64,000 nucleotides of DNA from Polytrichum commune (taxonomy: Eukaryota > Streptophyta > Polytrichopsida > Polytrichales > Polytrichaceae), in contig OX485804.1 of the NCBI GenBank assembly GCA_950295325.1, positions 57,104,001 to 57,168,000 of the forward strand, written 5' to 3'. A program made the translations under genes and the position numbers. A model generated the notes under the pieces. The model was not told the DNA's origin and did no database searches. It saw only the letters and a list, made by a program, of their open reading frames with translations. Numbering within the stretch: position 1 is the first letter of the stretch; every line of letters starts with the position of its first letter. Below, in pieces: positions 13,721 through 62,728 of this stretch.

Positions 13721-13944
13721 ATAGGATATGAAGAAAGAGGAATTGTGGCTCAAAAGCATATCGTTGAAGTTTCAATACACTGAAGAAGAAAGTGACATGT
13801 GTAAGGGAGAACTCTTGGAATTTATGTAAACACTTCGACATGAGTGTGAGAACAAAACGATATTTGAAGCTTGGCGCATATGTAGTAGCAATTTGGAATG
13901 GCACACAAATTGGCCTAAACTTATGCAAATTTGATAGAAAATTA

Positions 13945-14156
13945 TACTCATTCCATCATGTGTAGCTATTTGTGAGAGAGGATTTTCCAAGCAAATTACA
14001 ATTAAAAGCCACTTGCATAATAGGTTGAACTTGAAGACCCTTGATGCTCTTATGCGGGTCTCTCTTGGTAGGCTTGAAGCGGATGCAATGGATTGGGCTA
14101 TCATCTTCAATATTTGGAGAAACATGCAAGACCGAAGGATACTTACGCTCGATTGA
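13945..14156 (+). pseudogene. hAT transposase C-terminal dimerisation region, relic
   Basis: The plus frame ending at the stop 14154-14156 reads IPSCVAICERGFSKQ, then IKSHLHNRLNLKTLDALMRV and SLGRLEADAMDWAIIFNIWR. This is the signature C-terminal segment of hAT-family transposases, where the usual form is S-A-ERGFS followed by a basic NRL--TL--LMR block. The frame immediately upstream is broken by stops near 13935, and no BED zinc finger or catalytic core was recognised in the window. It is the 3' stub of a decayed hAT transposase. The domain identity is strong; its link to any of the nearby MITEs is not shown. Confidence 0.85.
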
Positions 14157-14567
14157 TAATTTTTTTGTTACAAATCAAGATCATATTTTGATTATTCAAA
14201 TATTAGTTTTCTAAAATATTGTGTAACCCAAAATTGAGATGACATTTTAAAATAAAATGTATATTTCGATTGACATTCATTTTTGTTTATGAAAACTTCA
14301 CGTGACACTTTGGATTTGAAGTTGAATGTCAAATGAAATTTGTCAAACATACACACTTGTAAGCATTACATTCTAGCCTCTTGAGTCTGAAAACCATGTC
14401 CTGAAGAGTACATCAAAGGACAAAGGAGGTAATACAGCTCAAAGGACAAAGGAGGTAATATATATATATAATTATTTGGTTTTTGTGCAGAGAATTTATC
14501 AACAGGTGATCAATGCTTTTTTCTTAGTAATTTCTTTTACAGTGTTTATTACTTGAACTCGTTTGTA

Positions 14568-16554: not shown

Positions 16555-17315
16555 CGAGCGAGCAGGCAGGCAGGCACAAGGAAGGGAGAGTGAGGAGTCT
16601 GCAGGGAAGAGGGGCAGCAGAAGATTGGGTAATTGAGCGGTAGCTTAGCGCCGTGTAGAAGGATTGAGATTTGATGAGAAAGCCATATTGAGCTGTAGCC
16701 GTACTCATCGACATTTAGGTGGTAGCAGCTGGCAAAGAGTGACAGGCATATTCAGGCTGGGTTACAGAAGAAGTAGCAGTAGTCGTAGAAGTAGTAGTAC
16801 CGGCACTGTCTGTTGCCTCCCTCTCACCAGGCAGCTCCCACCTCCACCCACACACACATACACACACAGAGACACACTTGATTGATTCTTCATCCCTGCG
16901 GATCCTACCCATTCGGAGTTGACAATTTGCCTCCGGCTTCTCTTAAGTCAAGTGCATGACTCGATTGAAGCCTGCACTGCACCTAGTAGAGTGACGGCGT
17001 TGCGAGAGACAGTCTACAGACAGACGGAAAGACAGACAGACAGACACACACTAGACTCCTCCAGAGAGACATTGCAAAGATTATTCCGAGATAGAACTTG
17101 ATTCAGGCTCTTCGTAGCTGGCCTTGAACCGCGATAGATAACTCAGTACTTCCTTCGTACACACCGATCAGTCTGCACCTGACATATTTCTTGAATACCG
17201 GGAAGCCTAGATCATTCAAAGAGTGCGAGTGAAGAAGTGCGGCTGTTTGAACGGTTTGATTGAAAACTGGTGAAGTTTCGCTCCACATTGAGTGCTTGCC
17301 ACAAGATTTCACTTT

Positions 17316-17378
<63 letters not shown>

Positions 17379-17900
17379 GTTGTTACATTGATCGGCGGCA
17401 AAACTCGACTTGTTTACATTACCATCAAAAGAGTTCACTTTTGAGAAAGTTCCACAAGTGGAGCATTGGTATGAAGTAGGGATCATTACATAGCTGCAAG
17501 TCATTCCTAGCTACACTTGTGAAAGAAGGCAGGAAAGCAAATTAGGGAGCGGAGTAGCTTTCGTGATGCAGAGTTGTCTGACGGCCACATGAGAAAAAGC
17601 TGAGTGGAGTGTAGTGGACATCCCTCTCCCTTCCCCTCTCCCTCACTGCACTCTGCCGCTCGCCGTATCACATTGTACTGGAGCCTTGTTGTTGATAAAC
17701 ACCTCGAGATGACGGGCCTGACATAGCCATATCCCTCCTTACCGCGCACAGTTGTCATCTGGCAGTTCTCTACCTCCTCATTTGGTTTCGCCTTCGGTGA
17801 CATCATTCATCCAAGCTCAGCAGCAGCATTGCCGCCTGCACAGACTTCAAAGCAATCAATTCTAAAACAGGTGGAACCACTTCCTTCCGGAATCAGTTGA
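16011..17900 (+). promoter_or_regulatory. GA/CT-microsatellite-rich upstream region of the EPFL gene
   Basis: This region is GC-richer than its left flank and dense in simple repeats: (GT)n followed by (GA)n at about 16517-16560, an AGGC run near 16560-16575, a CA run near 16848-16868, a GACA run near 17025-17048 and 28 GA units at 17318-17374. In plants GA tracts are bound by BASIC PENTACYSTEINE factors, which is a plausible but untested role. The open frames here are read through repeats and look non-coding. An upstream untranslated exon cannot be excluded. Confidence 0.5.
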
Positions 17901-17917
17901 GATTCGATACCATCTTC

Positions 17918-17926
17918 TTATATATC
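17918..17926 (+). promoter_or_regulatory. Probable TATA box of the EPFL gene
   Basis: TTATATATC lies 82-90 nt before the start codon. A start site about 30 nt downstream (near 17950) would leave a leader of about 55-60 nt. The assignment is by position only. Confidence 0.5.
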
Positions 17927-18007
17927 CCTACATCAAGTTGTATCCATTCTCCAACCGAGAAGACATTGAAAGAAGCACAGGACGCAGCAGCAGCTGTTGC
18001 ATCGACC

Positions 18008-20252
18008 ATGTCGTCCATTAAGTGGATTTATTGCTGCCTCTTCCTGCTCGTCGCCCTTGCTCCTGCATCCGTCATTGCACGCCTCCATCCTGGTAATTGA
18101 ATCCTCTGCAAGCCTTGTCATAATTGTTCCTAACCTTCCTCAATCGAGCCTGCCCGGCATTTTGTTACCGTGGATGGTTTGTAGCTTTGACACATTACAA
18201 GTTCTTTTCTTTAGCTCTCTTAACCCTCTTAGTCCTCTTAACCCGAAAAGGAGAACATACCTTAACTGGTCGGTTCCTTCTTCCTGAGGTCGAAGAGTTC
18301 TTGTATGCAGACTAGTTTAGCACTCGCATTTGACAAGAGTTGGGGGATAAATGCTGGATCATCCATCAACGAGTGATCGAGAATGCTAACTGCAGCTTAA
18401 CTCTCTCCCCTATGTGAATAGGATAGGAATTCCACACGATGTGCCTTGGCAGCTACATTTTTTCTTTTGATGCAGAACCGGACCTACCCCTCCTATGCCT
18501 CCCTCATATTTCATCTCTTCAAAGCTCAGAATCCACTAACCACTTGTAGATCAGGGTAAAGGACGGCAGCTTCCTCAGTCGCATACATACTTCTTGGTCA
18601 TGTACGTGAACTCTGAGTGACCTGTAGGAATTCAGGCGGTAGTGAAAAATTAGAATCGTTGGCCTTACATTTCAGCCTCGCACATCTCTTTTCGGCGGTT
18701 TTGAATCCTACATTAAGAAATAATGTCTCACACATGGCGCACAAGTGCTGCAATCTACTCCTTTTTGGTTGCCAATCACGCATGAGTGCTCCAGAGCTCA
18801 CAGGATGGTGCTTGAATGGGAAGGTCAATTTCGTTTCGTAGCATGTCTGAAGCAAGTCTTCACAGTAAGAAAGATCTGTCGAGTTGAAATTCTGACGAGC
18901 GATAGGCTCCGAGTCTATAAGATGGTAGTCGGTCTTAACACTGTGGCATCGACTGTGCGTGCAGGTGCATCATCCACAGAGTCGACGATGATCCTGTCGG
19001 AGGGACAAAACCAAGTTCCAGTTTGCGATGAATCGGCCACAGCGACCACATCGCAAGCTTCGTCTACAGAGCTTAAAAGAGAGGTATTAGCCCCACCCAC
19101 CGGACTCTTACACAGAAGGTTGGGTTCATTTTGGCCGGTTAATTGGACGTAGGCTTGAACTCAAATTAGAGCCTTACGCTTGTGAAAAGCGAAGTGATCG
19201 AAAGTTTTGGACATTCCATTTCGGTCAGAGTTTAGGACATTCCATTTCGCTTTTTATTTTCCTAATTTGCCAGCTTCTATTGGAAATTTTAGAATAATAT
19301 CCGCTTTATAGCTGGTAGATAGGTGCTTCTGCACCCAAGGTCGGCTCCTCATGGTTCAACAAGGTTAACCTGGCTTCATTTCCGGTTTCGAAATGTAAGA
19401 ATCCTATGTGTGAGGATGTGTTTCCTGATCTCACCAAGGGTACAGGAAGATTTGAACTGACATGAAACTGCCTGGTTAGTACAGTATCTTTCTGGAAGAC
19501 TGCAGTTGAACTAATCTGCCTAGCGATGCCTCTCTCAAGTTTTATTACATCTCCAGGCGCCATTTTAAACTTCACATGAATATCCAAATTACAGCACTGA
19601 CATCATCTCAATTACAGCACTGACAGTGGGTCAAAACCCGATATTTTGTGGCTCAATTTGGAGATGAACTACACTACTTTCACAGTAGAGTGGTCTGGAA
19701 TACTACCTGTAGATCGTTGACAAATCCTCTCAAATTGTCAATTCAATGTCAATTGTAGCACATTCATGTATCGTCCCAACATTGGGCTCTATACAGCTTC
19801 GAGGAAAGATCTTTAAAAAATGCTACATGTGACTCTCTAGGCTTCATGCACTGAAAGAAATTTTGTCAATCGAATGAGAGGATGATTCTCTTACAGCCCT
19901 GTAAAGACTGTAGTGTTAGACAATGCCTATTTAGGATTATAAACTTGTGCTACTGATGTCTTCCTGAGTCTAACAAGGTGAAATTGGTTCTGTACAGACC
20001 GTAGACTTTACATCCCCCCAGGAAGATTCCATCGTTTTCTTCCATCAAAATAGCAGAGGTGCGGCGAGCACCCGGAGGTGGCTGGTGGGACCAGGGTCGT
20101 CGCCTCCGACGTGCCGGCAGAAATGTGGGATGTGCCAGCCCTGCAAGCCGGTGCACATTGCAATTGGCAGCCCACATGGTGTCATCTCCGAAACCGAGTA
20201 CTATCCTGAGGTTTGGCGATGCCAGTGTGGCAACAAACTATACATGCCCTAA
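18008..20252 (+). CDS. EPF/EPFL-family secreted cysteine-rich peptide precursor (3 exons)
   Basis: The CDS is join(18008..18092, 18965..19083, 20022..20252), 144 residues, with GT-AG introns and consistent phases (1, then 0). Residues 1-25 are a signal peptide with hydrophobic core [16 protein letters not shown]. Residues 30-68 are a polar propeptide. A dibasic RR at 86-87 precedes [12 protein letters not shown]. The mature domain has six cysteines (99, 103, 106, 109, 135, 137) in the pattern C-x3-C-x2-C-x2-C, then a 25-residue loop, then C-x-C; it includes [15 protein letters not shown] and ends [18 protein letters not shown]. That pattern and ending are diagnostic of the EPIDERMAL PATTERNING FACTOR family, which signals through ERECTA-type receptors and TMM to control stomatal and organ patterning. 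It lacks the extra cysteines of stomagen. The exact subfamily needs a tree. The acceptor at 20020-20021 has a strong C-run. An in-frame upstream ATG at 17897 exists, but 18008 fits the signal peptide. Confidence 0.95.
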
Positions 20253-23200
20253 GGATGATGGCCTGCCTGCTTGAGATCGACTACCAGCTTATTTCGCTTC
20301 CAGAAACCCTTGTCAATCCCTCTCCTGTCTGTTTGTCTCACACTCCCACCAGAAACCCTAGCTCCAAGAATGACTACTTGTCCTTGAGCAGGAGGAGGCT
20401 ATGTGGACTGGCATCATCAACCAAATCAAGTTGATTAGCTGATCATCATCTTCTTCTCACCACGAATTACACAGTTCATCAGCTGCCTCTAACATACCTA
20501 GTAGAGAGTTTTTACATTTAGGATCCTTGAAACGAAGGCAATCAAGGCTGTGCCGCCAGCTGAGTTTTGACGACAATTGCAGAGTAACCCCCGACCGACC
20601 GACCGACCGACGGACGACTGTGGCAAGTGCATATGGTGAGAGTTAATAATCTGTAACATAGTTGGAGAGTATGCAGACAAAGTGGCGATCAGGTTTGGAC
20701 CTTGCGCTGATTTCATGTCAGACTGCTCGGTGCGGATCAATCTGGAGCCGGACATTACTTATAATTATGATGTAAACAAGATTTGATTGAGGATAGACGT
20801 GAAGAATAAGACCTAGTAAGTTTGACAGTAGTGTTAGCTAGGATCGAATACTACAAAAGGCTCAGTAATTCAGCCCTGATGATTCGTGACGCCCCAGCTG
20901 AGCAGGTGGGAGCGCCCTAAACCCCAGAGGCTGCTGGGACCAACACTATACGGTAGTTCTGGAGAGTACTTTGTGTTTGATCTTCAAGGCAGGGAGGATC
21001 CTTTCCTCACTGTCAGAAAATCTGGAATCGTTTGAGGCGTTGTTGTTTTTCTGCGCTAGCTAGCTGGCTGGCTAGCTAGGGTTTATAGCAGCAGGCAGCG
21101 AATTAGAGGTAGAACGATGTAGGTGATCTCCTGCATGATACTTGACATGTAACCTGGTATGAATCACAACCATCATCATAGCTCTCAATCTGGGGCGTGA
21201 AGTCCCAAGCAGCTTAAATCATGTATATGTCAGTAATTACGGCTCTCTGTTTAAGTTGTAAAACTGTATGACCAAATCTAGCATCGAGTCTTGAGCTGAC
21301 TGGCGGGCTTTGGGAGACGAGGATGGATTTTCTACGTGTACTTATGATTCAATTTTGCGTATTTGCAAATTTCCAACTGTTCTTACATTGTTTCTAACTG
21401 CCTATGTGTATATTAGATTCTGCCTGTGGTGGTCAGTATGCATGTGAACATGGTCTTCCTTTTTTGTAATCCTACAATTTATGCCCATGTGAGGTGATGA
21501 GAACAGGCGGCCACAAGCGACATTTAACTGCAGAGCTCATAGCTTGTATATAATCACCACTGATTTGGAGTGTTGGTGGAGTTAGGTATATATTCATTGG
21601 TTGAATTCAGGACTCTACATTAGAGGCACACAATAATTTTTTCTGAACAAACGAACTTGCACCTGGCAGTTACTGTTATAATCCGTGCAGATTCAGTATT
21701 CAAGGTAGAGTGTCGCTCAAGATAAGATTACTAGAAGTCTGCTGCTGGAAACAGGACACAAATGTCTGGCCACTTATTTGGAGTTACTGTTTTCTGACAA
21801 ATTCATGCAGATAGAAATACACCAGCTGGGATTTGTGTTATAGCTAAGTTTGTGAAGCGGTCTTAGTCCTTCAATCTTGCCAGAATTTCCGTCAAGTTGG
21901 AGAACTTTGTGTGGAGATTTACATGCTTAATGTGGGGAGATGGCGAGGTACGACGACTACCGATATGAAAGTACTGAGTCTATAGAAATTCAGCTTAATT
22001 ACATATGTGCAATTTGGTAATTGATTTTCCTAAAGCAGAATTATTGGATTCGCACAAAGTCCAGAACACAATCCCGACCGTACACTACAATATGAGGGAC
22101 TACGAATCCACTGAATGGATTCATTCTGAATTCTGATTTTCTCAGTTCTAGAAGGTTTCCTTGAGGACGTTGCAATGTCGCCGGGGAGTGATTCTCTACA
22201 ACTACATTCAGCAACAGATCAAAGAACCTTGTTGAGAATTATACGTACTACAGATCACTACTATTTGCGAAATTGGGAGGTGATCCAATGTTGACAGGAT
22301 GGGGGGTGCCATGTAATTATTCTTGACATATGTTAAAGCTAGCCACCTTGGTTGTGAATTTGATTGCAATTGAATCAGAGCAGCTAGCCCAACTTAATTA
22401 GCATCAGACCCCAGTGCCATTACTTCCAACTTCATGGCATTTCAACTCTTTGTGACAGCATCGACCTGATCGAGTACGTCACTCCAGAAAGTTACAGTGC
22501 CGATGAATGTCTTGATTCTGCAGCAGCTGGGATCTTTTGGACTACTCCTATGGGGCAACTGTTCCAGGTATCTTTTACTTATGGCAGAATTCCAGCCATC
22601 AAGGACTTCCATTTTTTTTAAATCACCCAGGTGTGGACTCTGCATGCGTTTATGGCAAAGACTTTGACATGAATGCGGAGATAAGAAATGCGGGAGATGT
22701 CCTGGGTGGGGAGCAGCTAGGCAGCCCGCGGCCTGTCCCCACACCCACCCAACGTTCATGGGTTGCGGTGACCGAGACCAAGGACCCACAAGAAGGTGGT
22801 CCAGGGATTTTTTCATAAAGACTGGGCCAAGCTTAAAGCAGAGGACCACCCGAAGCGTCATGCTGAGGTGGGGCGGACACCTCGGCCACCTTCTTCAATA
22901 TCTGTTGGGCCAGTAAGGCTTCCTCTCAAAGTAGGCCATCAATCCCCCCACTCATACATTTTTTTCTGGCCAAGGGGATTGTATTCGAATCTGAGGATTG
23001 GGTGTTTCTTGCTCAAATAGTGTTCCTGAAAATTCAAGCTAGCCATGATGCAAAGATGTATCTTATATCAAAAACTTGAAGAATTGAGTAACTGATGAGC
23101 CGGTGACATTTGTAGCCAAGGTGGCTCTCAAAATGAAACTAGAATCGCATGGAGTCACTCGAGCTCTGAGTGTTCCTGCTAGAGCCACATTTCCATTACT

Positions 23201-25496: not shown

Positions 25497-25920
25497 CCAG
25501 CTTCTTCTCCGAGGATTTACATTGCCCTTAACTTAATTAGCTCCTCTCTGATGTAGCTACCCTCACTTGACAAGCTTTCATCGCAGTGACTCTGAATGCT
25601 CTATTATAAATAGCAGCTAGCGACAATCCTCGGATCACCCCAGGTTCCTCCCGAGGGTGAAGGATCTTATATTTTATAAGCATCCAGCAGCAGATTGGCC
25701 AATGCATTCATCTTCTTCTTCTCCTCCTTCTCCGATCTGAACTTACATTGCCCGGCCAGTGCCAAGTTGGCCACCACCCTGCGCACTCAGACTCACATTT
25801 CATCGCAGTGACTGAGTCTCAATATAACTCTCAAGTAGACTAATATTATAAGTAGCAGGCAGCAGCGACATTGCTCGGATCAGCCTGCAACAAGTTCCTC
25901 CGGAGGGCGGGGGATCTGCT
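25497..25920 (+). repeat. Diverged tandem duplication with TATA-like core (about 222-250 bp offset)
   Basis: Two collinear blocks, about 25497-25672 and 25719-25920, share in order TCTCCGA, TTACATTGCCC, TCGCAGTGAC (25581 and 25803), ATTATAA-TAGCA, CTCGGATCA, GTTCCTCC-GAGGG (25644 and 25894) and GGATCT. The order is conserved although the spacers differ. This could be a duplicated regulatory block or a decayed duplicated exon; no open frame runs through both. Confidence 0.65.
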
Positions 25921-25951
25921 GACACCGAGGTACAGGGAGGGAATCATCTGC

Positions 25952-25981
25952 AGAGGCAGCAGCAGCAGCAGCAGCAGCAGG
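25952..25981 (+). repeat. (CAG)n microsatellite
   Basis: About nine CAG units lie here and a shorter CAG run lies near 25458-25472. They are not inside a supported reading frame. Confidence 0.9.
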
Positions 25982-26171
25982 GACAAGCAGGCGACATGGT
26001 CTTGAGCTTTAGCAGGTGCAATTGCAAGGAAAGAACATGGCGCGGGTGTGATCGAGGAAGGAGACTAGAGGTAGGAAGCTGCAGCTGAGACACTGACCTG
26101 CAGTTCCAGGCACATGACATGAGCAGACGCTAAATCTGAGCCGACCCAGCAGCAAGCAGGTTCCTGCCACC

Positions 26172-26375
26172 ATGGTCGCTCGCTCGTTGATCACCACCTC
26201 GTCTGCCATGACCTCTCTCTCTCTCTCTCTCTGTCTCTCCTATTTGCGAAGTGCGACAAAAGAGTCGATGCAGCAATCCAACAAACAACAAGGTGCAGCA
26301 CATGACTCATCAGCTTCCCCTGCGGCGTCGATCTCTTCCTCGGCTCAATCATGGCCTGCTTCATTGTACATGTAA
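26172..26375 (+). other. Weak small-ORF candidate, 67 codons
   Basis: The ATG sits in a strong context (CTGCCACCATGG), and the frame reads MVARSLITTSSAMTSLSLSL, a weak hydrophobic run made by a TCTC microsatellite, then a Ser/Gln-rich tail. It has no cysteine pattern, no known peptide motif and no evident splice partner. It most likely arises by chance from the CT repeat. It is listed because the start context and the non-repetitive GC-rich flank are unusual for this window. Confidence 0.15.
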
Positions 26376-26879
26376 GTTAGGCCGTGGCTGAATCAATTCA
26401 CCACTACATGATGAAGTAGTAGGTAGATCGATCGCCCTTGCTTGCGTCGGAAGCGGCTCAGCTCTTTGTCGTCGATCTATCGCCTAGATGTTCTTCATCC
26501 TTTCGCACCCCTCGTCACACATAACTTAGTACTCGTCCATACCCACTTCCTGAGCTGGTGATTCTTACAGACCAGTGTGCACTGAACATGAAATAATTAC
26601 TGGCGTGAAAAGTGTTTCCCCAGATCGATTCCATATACTGTATGTGATCATCACCAACGGTGCTCGTTCACGGATGGTGCCCCCAAGAACGTCAATCAAG
26701 CCGAGGCCCCCCTTCACACTGAAAGGCTAGAGCTCCAAGATTGAGCTTTTGAAGAAAGAACAAGCCTTCTCAGTGGCAGCAAGGAGCCTCGGAGTGACAC
26801 GCTTGTTTACTCAACTCCGCTTGCTTTACACTTGAGAGCTGAGTCAGCTTCTCTTTACCGAGCTTACAACACTTGAGGT

Positions 26880-29426: not shown

Positions 29427-29430
29427 CATA

Positions 29431-30230
29431 TATCATTCAAATATAGGTGTCCAATTAAGAAGAGAGACCACATAAGGCTTACATGCCTATCTTATGCTTG
29501 TATGCAACATTGCACATAACATTACTCAACTTAGCCATGGTGTTTTGGCCCACAAAACACCATGACTAAGTTGAGTAATGTTATGTCACATATCATTCAA
29601 ATATAGGTGTCCAATTAAGAAGAGAGACCACATAAGGCTTACATGCCTATCTTATGCTTGTATGCAACATTGCACATAACATTACTCAACTTAGCCATGG
29701 TGTTTTGGCCCACAAAACACCATGGCTAAGCTGAGTAATGTTATGTCATATATCATTCAAATATAGGTGTCCAATTAAGAAGAGAGACCACATAAGGCTT
29801 ACATGCCTATCTTATGCTTGTATGCAACATTGCACATAACATTACTCAACTTAGCCATGATGTTTTGGCCCACAAAACACCATGGCTAAGCTGAGTAATA
29901 ATATGTCATATATCATTCAAATATAGGTGTCCAATTAAGAAGAGAGACCACATAAGGCTTACATGCCTATCTTACGCTTGTATGCAACATTGCACATAAC
30001 ATTACTCAACTTAGCCATGGTGTTTTGGCCCATAAAACACCATGACTAAGCTGAGTAATGTTATGTCATATATCATTCAAATATAGGTATCTATTTGAGA
30101 GGAGAAACCACATAAGGCTTACATACCTATCTTATGCTTGTATGCAACACTGCACATAACATTACTCAACTTAGCCATGGTGTTTTGGCCCACATAACGC
30201 CATGGCCAAGCTAAGTAATGTTATGCAAAG
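29431..30230 (+). repeat. Five-unit tandem array, 160-bp period, each with a 33-bp hairpin
   Basis: The word TATCATTCAA starts at 29431, 29591, 29751, 29911 and 30071, exactly 160 bp apart. Units 1-4 are nearly identical; unit 5 is more diverged. Each unit holds an inverted repeat whose left arm starts CATAACATTACTCAACTTAG, with a loop of about 4 nt (near GCCC) and 33-nt arms that differ by one base or a few. The start of each unit (AGGTGTCCAATTAAGA) is an end of the foldback family at 57915-58645. The array therefore looks like a tandemly amplified transposon end carrying a small palindrome. Confidence 0.95.
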
Positions 30231-34292: not shown

Positions 34293-34600
34293 GCCCATAC
34301 CCATGCCCATGCCCATACCCACCCATGCCCATGGGTTTTGGGTGGGCATGGGTGCAATATTATTGTTCATGGGCGGGCATGGGTGGGCATGGGTGGGGCA
34401 TAATTACACAATTACACAATTACACAATACACATTACATAATTTTTTAATACATGGGCGCAATTTGAATAGCATGGGTGGGCATGGGTGGGCACATGTCA
34501 TGCTATGTGTGGGCATGGGTGGGCATGGGTGCGCACATGTCATGCTATGGGTGGGCATGGGTGGGCATAGGTTGTTGCTGATGGGCATGGTCTGGGTATG
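34293..34600 (+). repeat. GGGCATGGGTG minisatellite with inverted segment
   Basis: About 34296-34335 carries CCCATGCCCAT units; from about 34330 the complementary GGGCATGGGTG unit repeats more than ten times, interrupted by a short ACAATTAC array near 34402-34430. The G-runs could form quadruplexes or a large hairpin. Frames through it (34220-34449 and 34412-34639) are repeat-encoded and not genes. Confidence 0.9.
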
Positions 34601-60010: not shown

Positions 60011-62728
60011 AATTTGGACTATGCTTGCACAATGGCAACAATAAATTTCTTGGAGATTATTCTTGCAAGTGATGAGTACTCTTTAGAATCTCACTTGAGT
60101 ATTGTGGACCTGATAACATGGTTGGGAAAATGGGTAGGCAGGGGGCCCCGCGCTCGCAAGAGAGGATATAACAAGGTTCACACCTGATCAATGGATCAAC
60201 ATCTACATTACCACATGCATCTGGGTTGTCCTCTACTTTTTGGTCATTCCTGTAAGAAAATTCTTGACCATTGCTTGTGACAAACATTTTACCTTTTGTT
60301 TTGTTTTTGTTTTGTTTTTGTTGTTTCTTCTTTCTAAAGTATGATCTCAATAAATTCAATAATTGTTTTCCCTTACTTTGTGTGCCCTTAATCCCAAAGC
60401 TCATTGCTTCAGGAACTGTACTTGTTAGTATCTGATTGTGGTGCTCAACTCGTTGGCTCTTCTTGCCCTCTACCTAGTTCTAGCCTGAACAATTGGGTTG
60501 GAAGAAAATTGATCTTGGAAGCATTTGCAATCTCAACCTTGGACAGGCAGATGAATAGTATCCAGGTGTAGAAGATGAGTAGACATGTAGATTGATGACT
60601 ACATGGTGAACCCAAGTGATGCAACTTTGTGCCAGAAACGTAGGTTAATGAATCTTCAGAAAGATTATGAAATTGAGACAATCAGAAACTTTGATCTGGG
60701 TTGGCATATGAACCTGCTGGAATCTTGAACTCCATCATTTTCTGATTTGTTAAGATTAGTGGCTTTCTCTTAGTACAGCAGCTGGCTCCTATTCTCCAGA
60801 GCCTTATCAATTCTATAATCAACCCCTTCTTTGATCCTTGAAAGAAACTGAGAATGTGTGGGCCTTGGATCTCTGCAGATTGTGATTTATAATTATCTTC
60901 GGTTGCGTTGGTATAAAAGGAGCACATTGGAGACATTCTTTCAGTTCTTACTCGTCTTCCTATTCTTTCCTGGGTTGGTGCTGTTCTCACTTCACACTCT
61001 CTGTAGCATTTCAATAGGTCTCCTGCTGCAAATTTTGGACTTTCCACTGTTGAAAAGAACATATGTGACGGAACAATTGGTAAAAGTTTTAACACCGAAA
61101 CAGACATCCAAAACACTTGGCTAATATATTAGATGCTCGTCATATACACAAGGTATAACTGAGGTTGTGGAGCATGGAGGTGATAGGTTGACTACATTTC
61201 AATCATGGCATTCAGAGCTGAAATATTGATAGGTGCATAACCAGGTTATAATTTAAATTGTTGGTGAGTCTGTCATTTTAATTATTTAGGGACTTTATTA
61301 CGATGTTTCCTGCCTTGTCAGACTTATGCATGTTCATAGCTATAGGTAATGTAGGGCCATATGAGGTCTAAGAGACTGTTCAAATTGCATTCAAACTCCA
61401 AACCGGTCTTCTGAATCTGTTTTTTTAATTTTCTCATTGCAGGATGTTGATATTGGCACCATTCATCAATTTCCGGCGCTTGCCAAATGATGGTGCTGAT
61501 GGACCTTGACAACCTTCTTAAAATTGTCTACATCATGCGCTCTGGTGAATCATTTAAAAATCTTATATTTGTACCTCATCACCTTATTCTATGTTTGGTA
61601 TGTTTGATCATGATTCCGCAAATTTTCTGTTGTGTCCACTGTGCCTGAAACGTCTGGTCCACATCACAAACCTCTAAATTCGTATGTCGTCAGCCATTTC
61701 ACATTGATTCAAACACTTCAACCTCCAATATTGAAACAAACACATTTAACAAGAATACAGGAATCCACTTCAATTCTAAAGGTAGGCAGACTATGACTCT
61801 TATAGAAGAAAGTGTGGTAGCGTTATAAAGCGATCTAGGCTTTTTTAATCCAAATTATAATTCAATGAGGAGCTTAACCAATTTACTGCTAAATCATGTT
61901 CAATAAAACATATCCAATGATCAGTTTTAGGATTGTGATTTATTTATATTATATGAGAGCCCTTTCCATAGCAATAAATAGAAGTTCAAAATACAACTCC
62001 CTAGAGGCTTTACCACTTAAGGCATGGACGATGGAGACATTGATTGGTTTCCTTTCATTTCAAGGCACATATTAGTCAATGATAAGCTTGGTATGGTAAT
62101 TGAACAAATTCAATGTTTGCAATGGAGATTTCGAAAGGCATGCACAAGACCCCTATGTATGTTGTAGCTCAAGTATGTGCCTCACCATAGCCTGCAAAAG
62201 TGTATGCCCCATTTGACCTTGTTCTCTCCCTGGGCCTTGAGCCAATTTTGAGAACTTGAAATTCAAAACCTAAGGAGGGTCTACAGTAAGCATGTTCACC
62301 ATTGACATGTGAAAATGACTTATAGAATGCTTGGATTTGGGTTCCAAGTGACTTATCATGGGTGTGAAGTATTTCCATTAGAAGATGAGCAAGCTATTTG
62401 ATACATTATTTTTGAATGTACCAAAAATATTGATTTGCACTAATGCACAAATTCAAAGTCATAATGCTACAAAAGTGTTGGATTCATAAATCTCTTGGCA
62501 TTGAATCCAGTCTAGGCTAGAGCAATGTTTTGATTGATGTAAACTAAGATCTCTACACAAGATGTAACCCACATCCAGTCATTCTTCTTCAAAATTCTTT
62601 TGATGCAATAAAGGAACCTGGTGAAGTCAAGTGATGTGAACACAAGTAGTGTGCTTTTGTGTAAGCGTCCATCACGTCACGCCATGTAACATCACATGAA
62701 CAATTGACATAAGGGAAAAGTTCTTGCA
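60011..62728. other. Intergenic or downstream introns; 3' UTR of SWEET at the right end
   Basis: Possible exon-like signals are an acceptor TTTTCTCATTGCAG at 61442, and a TATAAAAG near 60912. Neither can be tied to a gene. The 144-codon minus frame at 60682-61116 shows no domain. The right part is downstream of the SWEET stop at 62729 and probably includes its 3' UTR. Confidence 0.4.

Follow-up and report, generated by a model that had tools for sequence, protein, structure and literature searches.

A predicted EPFL4/5/6-type peptide gene with three small exons, and its small family, in the moss Polytrichum commune

The window analysed here, by which the whole 64-kb stretch of Polytrichum commune DNA is meant, carries what its sequence marks as a real and intact nuclear gene, whose cysteine-rich product is of the EPFL4/5/6 type and is predicted to be secreted. 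The best explanation, at a probability of roughly 0.88, is that this intact EPFL4/5/6(/8)-type gene encodes a secreted peptide which, by analogy with known members of the type, would act as a TMM-independent ERECTA ligand in growth or patterning rather than mainly in stomatal spacing. The gene looks well conserved but ordinary, and its biology is the expected one apart from a trap in the list of open reading frames and the small size of the family. The family itself and the membership of moss and hornwort genes in this clade were already known; what is new is a further bryophyte-type EPFL4/6 gene whose exon structure can be read cleanly.

The window gene consists of three exons on the + strand, with a coding sequence of 435 nt including the stop codon and a 144-aa prepropeptide as product. 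Exon 1 (18008..18092, 85 nt) contains the ATG and a predicted signal peptide and is followed by a phase 1 intron; exon 2 (18965..19083, 119 nt) encodes a Ser/Thr-rich pro-domain and is followed by a phase 0 intron; exon 3 (20022..20252, 231 nt) encodes the end of the pro-domain, an Arg-Arg site, the mature peptide and the TAA stop. Both introns (18093..18964, 872 nt, and 19084..20021, 938 nt, on the same strand) are GT-AG introns, with donors CCTG/gtaatt and AGAG/gtatta and acceptors tgcag/GTGC and cccag/GAAG. The G+C content is 0.51-0.56 in the exons versus 0.41-0.45 in the introns. The ATG at 18008 is the sole ATG within 17900-18010, and a pattern scan placed a TATA-box-like TATATA (17919..17924, +) 89 bases 5' of it, which may represent the core promoter. 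Farther upstream, Tandem Repeats Finder detected an (AG)28.5 simple repeat (17318..17374). A complete EPF/EPFL gene divided among three small exons had been proposed in an earlier sequence-only reading, and all of its coordinates hold; the splice sites are GT-AG, the product matches Pfam EPF, and two paralogues can be read with the same intron phases.

The same reading had warned that a simple ORF scan misses the frame of the mature peptide, and this is correct. Over exon 3 the longest start-to-stop frame of the + strand is 20059..20274, which runs for 71 aa from a GTG in another phase and outranks the true frame, listed at only 55 aa from the GTG at 20085. At this EPFL exon 3, the frame that passes the usual 60-aa limit of an ORF list is the wrong one.

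Assignment to the family is clear. The Pfam search of the 144-residue product, as had been proposed, matched the EPF profile (PF17181) over residues 92-144 with an E-value of 5.5e-21 (74.7 bits, the cut-off being 27; profile positions 2-52 of 52), and the same locus was matched at 7.7e-19 when all six frames of the genome were searched. This match is far beyond chance. The mature EPFL domain (20091..20249, +), whose N-terminal boundary was set from the match to EPFL4, contains the six cysteines that had been read in it, at residues 99, 103, 106, 109, 135 and 137, with the spacing C-x3-C-x2-C-x2-C-x25-C-x-C; the 12-residue C-terminal ending that had been given for the product was also found. 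Among PDB sequences, Arabidopsis EPFL4 (5xkn chain E) ranked first (1.3e-20, 76.9 bits), followed by EPF1 (7.8e-5, 25.8 bits) and EPF2 (8.3e-3, 19.2 bits), and the other four of the seven sequences at E up to 1 (WhiB3 and others, E at least 0.04) appear chance-like. All six cysteines align with those of known EPFs, including EPFL4, a member of the EPFL4-5-6-8/CHALLAH clade. EPFL4 is 73% identical over the aligned part of the domain and shows the same six-cysteine order in GSSPPTC...CQPCKPVH...EYYPE.WRC.CGNKL.MP; the loop between the fourth and fifth cysteines is 25 residues long in the window gene and 23 in EPFL4. A single-sequence AlphaFold model of a 59-residue stretch was poor (mean pLDDT 59.6, pTM 0.36) and gives no structural support.

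A tree with EPF/EPFL proteins had also been proposed. The tree built here contains eight sequences (IQ-TREE maximum likelihood, LG+G4): three six-cysteine genes of this genome including the window gene, an eight-cysteine gene of the same genome, AtEPFL4, EPF1, EPF2 and EPFL9. Among the Arabidopsis proteins included, the window gene groups with AtEPFL4; EPFL1-3, 5, 6, 7 and 8 are absent from the tree, and the EPFL4-6-EPFL8 placement within the six-cysteine group is read from EPFL4 alone. The six-cysteine genes and AtEPFL4 are split from the eight-cysteine gene, EPF1, EPF2 and EPFL9; support for this split is 99.9 by SH-aLRT and a modest 78 by UFBoot. Within these groups the two six-cysteine paralogues (L001 and L002) form the only well-supported pair (94.7/90). 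The placement of EPFL9 differs by method, and FastTree puts it beside the six-cysteine group, in conflict with IQ-TREE. Of EPFL4, EPF1, EPF2 and EPFL9, the one nearest to the predicted peptide of the window gene is EPFL4. At E up to 1, EPF is the one Pfam family that the window protein matches, Stomagen being absent, and the seven PDB sequences within the same limit do not include Stomagen 2liy; genome-wide, the Pfam Stomagen profile gave 0 matches in a search run without a positive control. In the account of PMC3670920, the EPFL4-6-EPFL8 clade contains bryophyte genes and the EPFL9 and EPFL1-3 clades are confined to vascular plants. The set of genes found here, with no Stomagen match, fits that distribution.

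A Pfam EPF search of the moss's own genome (408 Mb in 64 contigs; 9 of 9 candidates scored; 14 control genomes without a match) detected four EPF loci: the window gene on contig C2, L001 also on C2 (6.55 Mb), L002 on C5 (46.8 Mb) and L004 on C6 (28.6 Mb). The PsaA encoded by the plastome contig C8 (146,561 bases) also speaks for a moss: among the best 60 of 84 PDB matches, 8htu ranks first, followed by 6l35 (identical in sequence to 7ksq, 7kux and 7xqp) and 9lut, and 8htu and the 6l35 group are Physcomitrium patens structures. The large contigs include C1-C7, as would suit a moss with seven chromosomes such as one of the Polytrichaceae. L001 and L002 are six-cysteine genes, and Pfam EPF matches their products at 8.9e-22 and 1.5e-21, respectively. 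L004 is an eight-cysteine gene; its peptide exon, of the EPF1/EPF2 type, lies at G000:C6:28595638-28595793 (+), and its PDB matches are EPF1 at 1.4e-12, EPF2 at 5.2e-10 and EPFL4 at just 0.017. In the 9.4 kb upstream of this exon, six candidate signal-peptide ATGs were listed, the most hydrophobic of them about 4.6 kb upstream. When the window domain was used as genome query, the three six-cysteine genes were returned and the matches then dropped to E 0.02; the eight-cysteine domain as query returned nothing further below E 0.9. By their predicted peptides, the genes found are one EPF1/2-type gene and three EPFL4-type genes. With four members found, the family is small, and stomatal and non-stomatal EPF signalling could be easier to separate by genetics here than in Physcomitrium, which has roughly eleven such genes.

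The value of the gene for stomatal control, which had been put forward earlier, stands in part: the gene belongs to the EPF/EPFL family, but it is of the EPFL4/5/6 (CHALLAH) type and not of the EPF1/2 stomatal type, and its relevance to stomata is indirect. The window peptide might nevertheless be read as a stomatal negative regulator like EPF1/EPF2, spacing stomata via ERECTA with or without TMM. It belongs to the same Pfam family, shares the cysteine core of the EPF1/EPF2/PpEPF1 type, and has EPF1 as its second-best PDB match. In addition, Arabidopsis EPFL4/5/6 are described as inhibiting stomata, an effect that is stronger where TMM is lacking (PMC12620614), and nine PpEPFL genes, reported as up in the developing moss sporophyte, have been proposed as inhibitors of stomata in the absence of PpTMM (PMC5047656). 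We regard this reading as very unlikely, however. Members of the EPF1/EPF2/PpEPF1 type are described as having an additional disulfide within the loop (PMC12755873), and the extra loop cysteine pair of the eight-cysteine EPF1-EPF2-EPFL7 clade is absent from the window domain, which has six cysteines; EPFL4 beats EPF1 by 51 bits, and the maximum likelihood tree splits both types. The counterpart of the EPF1/EPF2/PpEPF1 type in this genome would be the separate eight-cysteine gene on C6, which is 30% identical to the window domain, has EPF1 as its best PDB match and is the likelier stomatal-control gene of the two.

For a TMM-independent, mainly non-stomatal peptide of the EPFL4/5/6 type, the following course may be proposed. 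The precursor would enter the secretory pathway, its pro-domain would be removed near Arg86-Arg87, and three disulfides would form in the mature domain. The peptide of about 53 aa would then bind ERECTA-family receptor kinases of neighbouring cells, with TMM not needed, and a MAPK cascade would steer growth or the patterning of cell divisions rather than mainly stomatal spacing. The classical stomatal role would fall to the separate EPF1/2-type gene, and ERECTA-like receptors appear to be present in the genome. According to PMC12755873, EPFL4 does not need TMM to bind ERECTA-family receptors, whereas EPF1/2 bind these receptors only in complex with TMM; PMC12620614 describes TMM as impairing signalling by EPFL4/5/6, and names the three Arabidopsis peptides also as inhibitors of stomatal development. 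The non-stomatal roles of ERECTA are considered in PMC3390899 as likely served by CHAL/EPFL4/EPFL5. Of the moss genes, only PpEPF1 'appears to play a role' in stomata in the wording of PMC7261847. The hornwort Anthoceros, likened here by description, has one EPFL4-6-clade gene beside a separate EPF gene (PMC8075897); the hornwort EPFL4-6-clade gene is described there as expressed in the gametophyte, and its authors suggest a non-stomatal role. Because of these accounts of TMM-free EPFL4, of hornwort gametophyte expression and of a stomatal role for PpEPF1 only, a mainly non-stomatal role is put first and a stomatal role second. The CHALLAH-like PpEPFL genes of Physcomitrium patens are likened to the window gene by clade only, as bryophyte genes of EPFL4-6-EPFL8 (PMC3670920), and their function is largely uncharacterised. 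Three six-cysteine genes were found in the genome studied here, versus a PpEPFL count of nine in PMC5047656 or ten in PMC12755873.

Candidate receptors were sought with a juxtamembrane-kinase query of AtERECTA, at a limit of 1e-18 and with 150 of 304 candidates scored. Four loci matched across the full 112 residues with identities of 55-64%, and the next stood at 44%: L019 on C5 (20.15 Mb), L020 on C3 (16.38 Mb), L021 on C1 (46.22 Mb) and L022 on C7 (10.05 Mb). A six-frame look at each of the four found GN..LC in an upstream frame and YIDPEYA in a downstream frame, with two GN..LC frames each in L021 and L022 and a multi-exon context; the other motifs tried in this look at the four loci gave no match. 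These loci are probably ERECTA-family genes. Queries with the ERECTA ectodomain and with the whole kinase were set aside, as they were swamped by other receptor kinases; the whole kinase gave six matches under 1e-60 at 41-47% identity. TMM was not found with four Arabidopsis TMM queries (an LRR-domain segment and three shorter ones) run without a positive control. One short query gave no match, and the other three returned generic-looking LRR proteins, with top identities of 46%, 43% and 52% over part of the query, from 134 of 2084, 150 of 1054 and 150 of 2563 first-look candidates scored. No firm conclusion on TMM follows from these searches, since many of the LRR candidates went unscored and a positive control was lacking. 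It is tempting to see in the four ligands (three of the EPFL4-6 type and one of the EPF1 type) and the ERECTA-like receptors a system without TMM, in which the window peptide and its paralogues would represent the ancestral TMM-free set of ERECTA ligands; this idea is tentative, and we consider it unlikely.

The gene structure can be compared among the six-cysteine genes. L001 and L002 are both readable as three exons with GT-AG introns in phases 1 and then 0, as in the window gene, and the signal-peptide first exon ends in CCTG/gt in all three alike; the exons of the two paralogues were placed by eye under the guidance of the window gene, and the agreement is not a blind one. Because L001 and L002 share the three-exon layout and the phases 1 and 0, both junctions of the window gene are supported, and this agreement gives strong support to the predicted three-exon model. 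It also bears on the reading in which the first two exons are part of another transcript, with exon 3 joined to some other first exon. The Pfam match covers residues 92-144 only and does not reach exons 1 and 2, which are identified by splice sites and comparison. Yet both paralogues can be read with a phase 1 signal-peptide exon and a phase 0 second exon in the same arrangement, and the exon 1 ATG is the first downstream of the TATA-like box, so that this reading is highly improbable. Three exons differ from the structure in oat, for which PMC12128535 gives two exons in 31 of 33 family genes.

The N-terminus of the predicted precursor is hydrophobic, with a mean hydropathy over 12 residues of up to 2.83, and signal-peptide cleavage is possible after residue 24 (ASVIA/RLHP), where the (-3,-1) site is one of seven places that fit a loose signal-peptidase rule. 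The dibasic site announced at residues 86-87 is present as Arg-Arg (codons 20073..20078, +) and may serve for processing; a second pair, Lys-Arg, occupies residues 66-67. In L001 and L002 the Arg-Arg is replaced by His-Arg. The place of cleavage is uncertain because of this His-Arg in both paralogues and the second dibasic pair. Cysteines 9, 10 and 49 are additional cysteines of the precursor outside the domain. The pro-domains of the window gene and of L001/L002 hardly align.

Over 156 aligned nucleotides of the mature domain, third positions account for 34 of 58 differences between the window gene and L001, 35 of 55 between the window gene and L002, and 29 of 35 between L001 and L002. NG86 dN values are 0.28, 0.23 and 0.06 for these three pairs, and dS is not computable, as in saturation. 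This third-position excess suggests purifying selection. A decayed or silent duplicate whose peptide is no longer made, to which the strongly different pro-region might point, is scarcely credible given a frame open from ATG to stop, two GT-AG introns, six cysteines all kept and the third-position bias against both six-cysteine paralogues.

In the surroundings of the gene, the window has 23 stop-to-stop ORFs that reach 110 aa or more; 20 of them were scanned against Pfam (those at 17106, 18601 and 18724, in or next to the gene, were left out), and none of the 20 exceeded a curated cut-off. Weak matches below the cut-off were MTABC_N at E 0.0099 (ORF 13775-14167) and FKBP_N at E 0.034 (ORF 60060-60473). 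Among the best 22 ORFs with lengths of 60-109 aa in the region from 12 to 34 kb, ten were scanned in the same way and gave no Pfam match. Small exons of neighbours could have escaped these scans. Searches for tRNA genes and Rfam families gave no match in the window. At 25849-26376 several small frames overlap on the two strands, and a GCA repeat there reads as a run of leucines; four of these frames were scanned without a Pfam match. A tandem array with a 160-base unit lies at 29427-30225 (5.0 copies, 95% matches), and short imperfect tandem repeats of the GCATGGGTGG type, with periods of 6-42, are clustered at 34293-34572.
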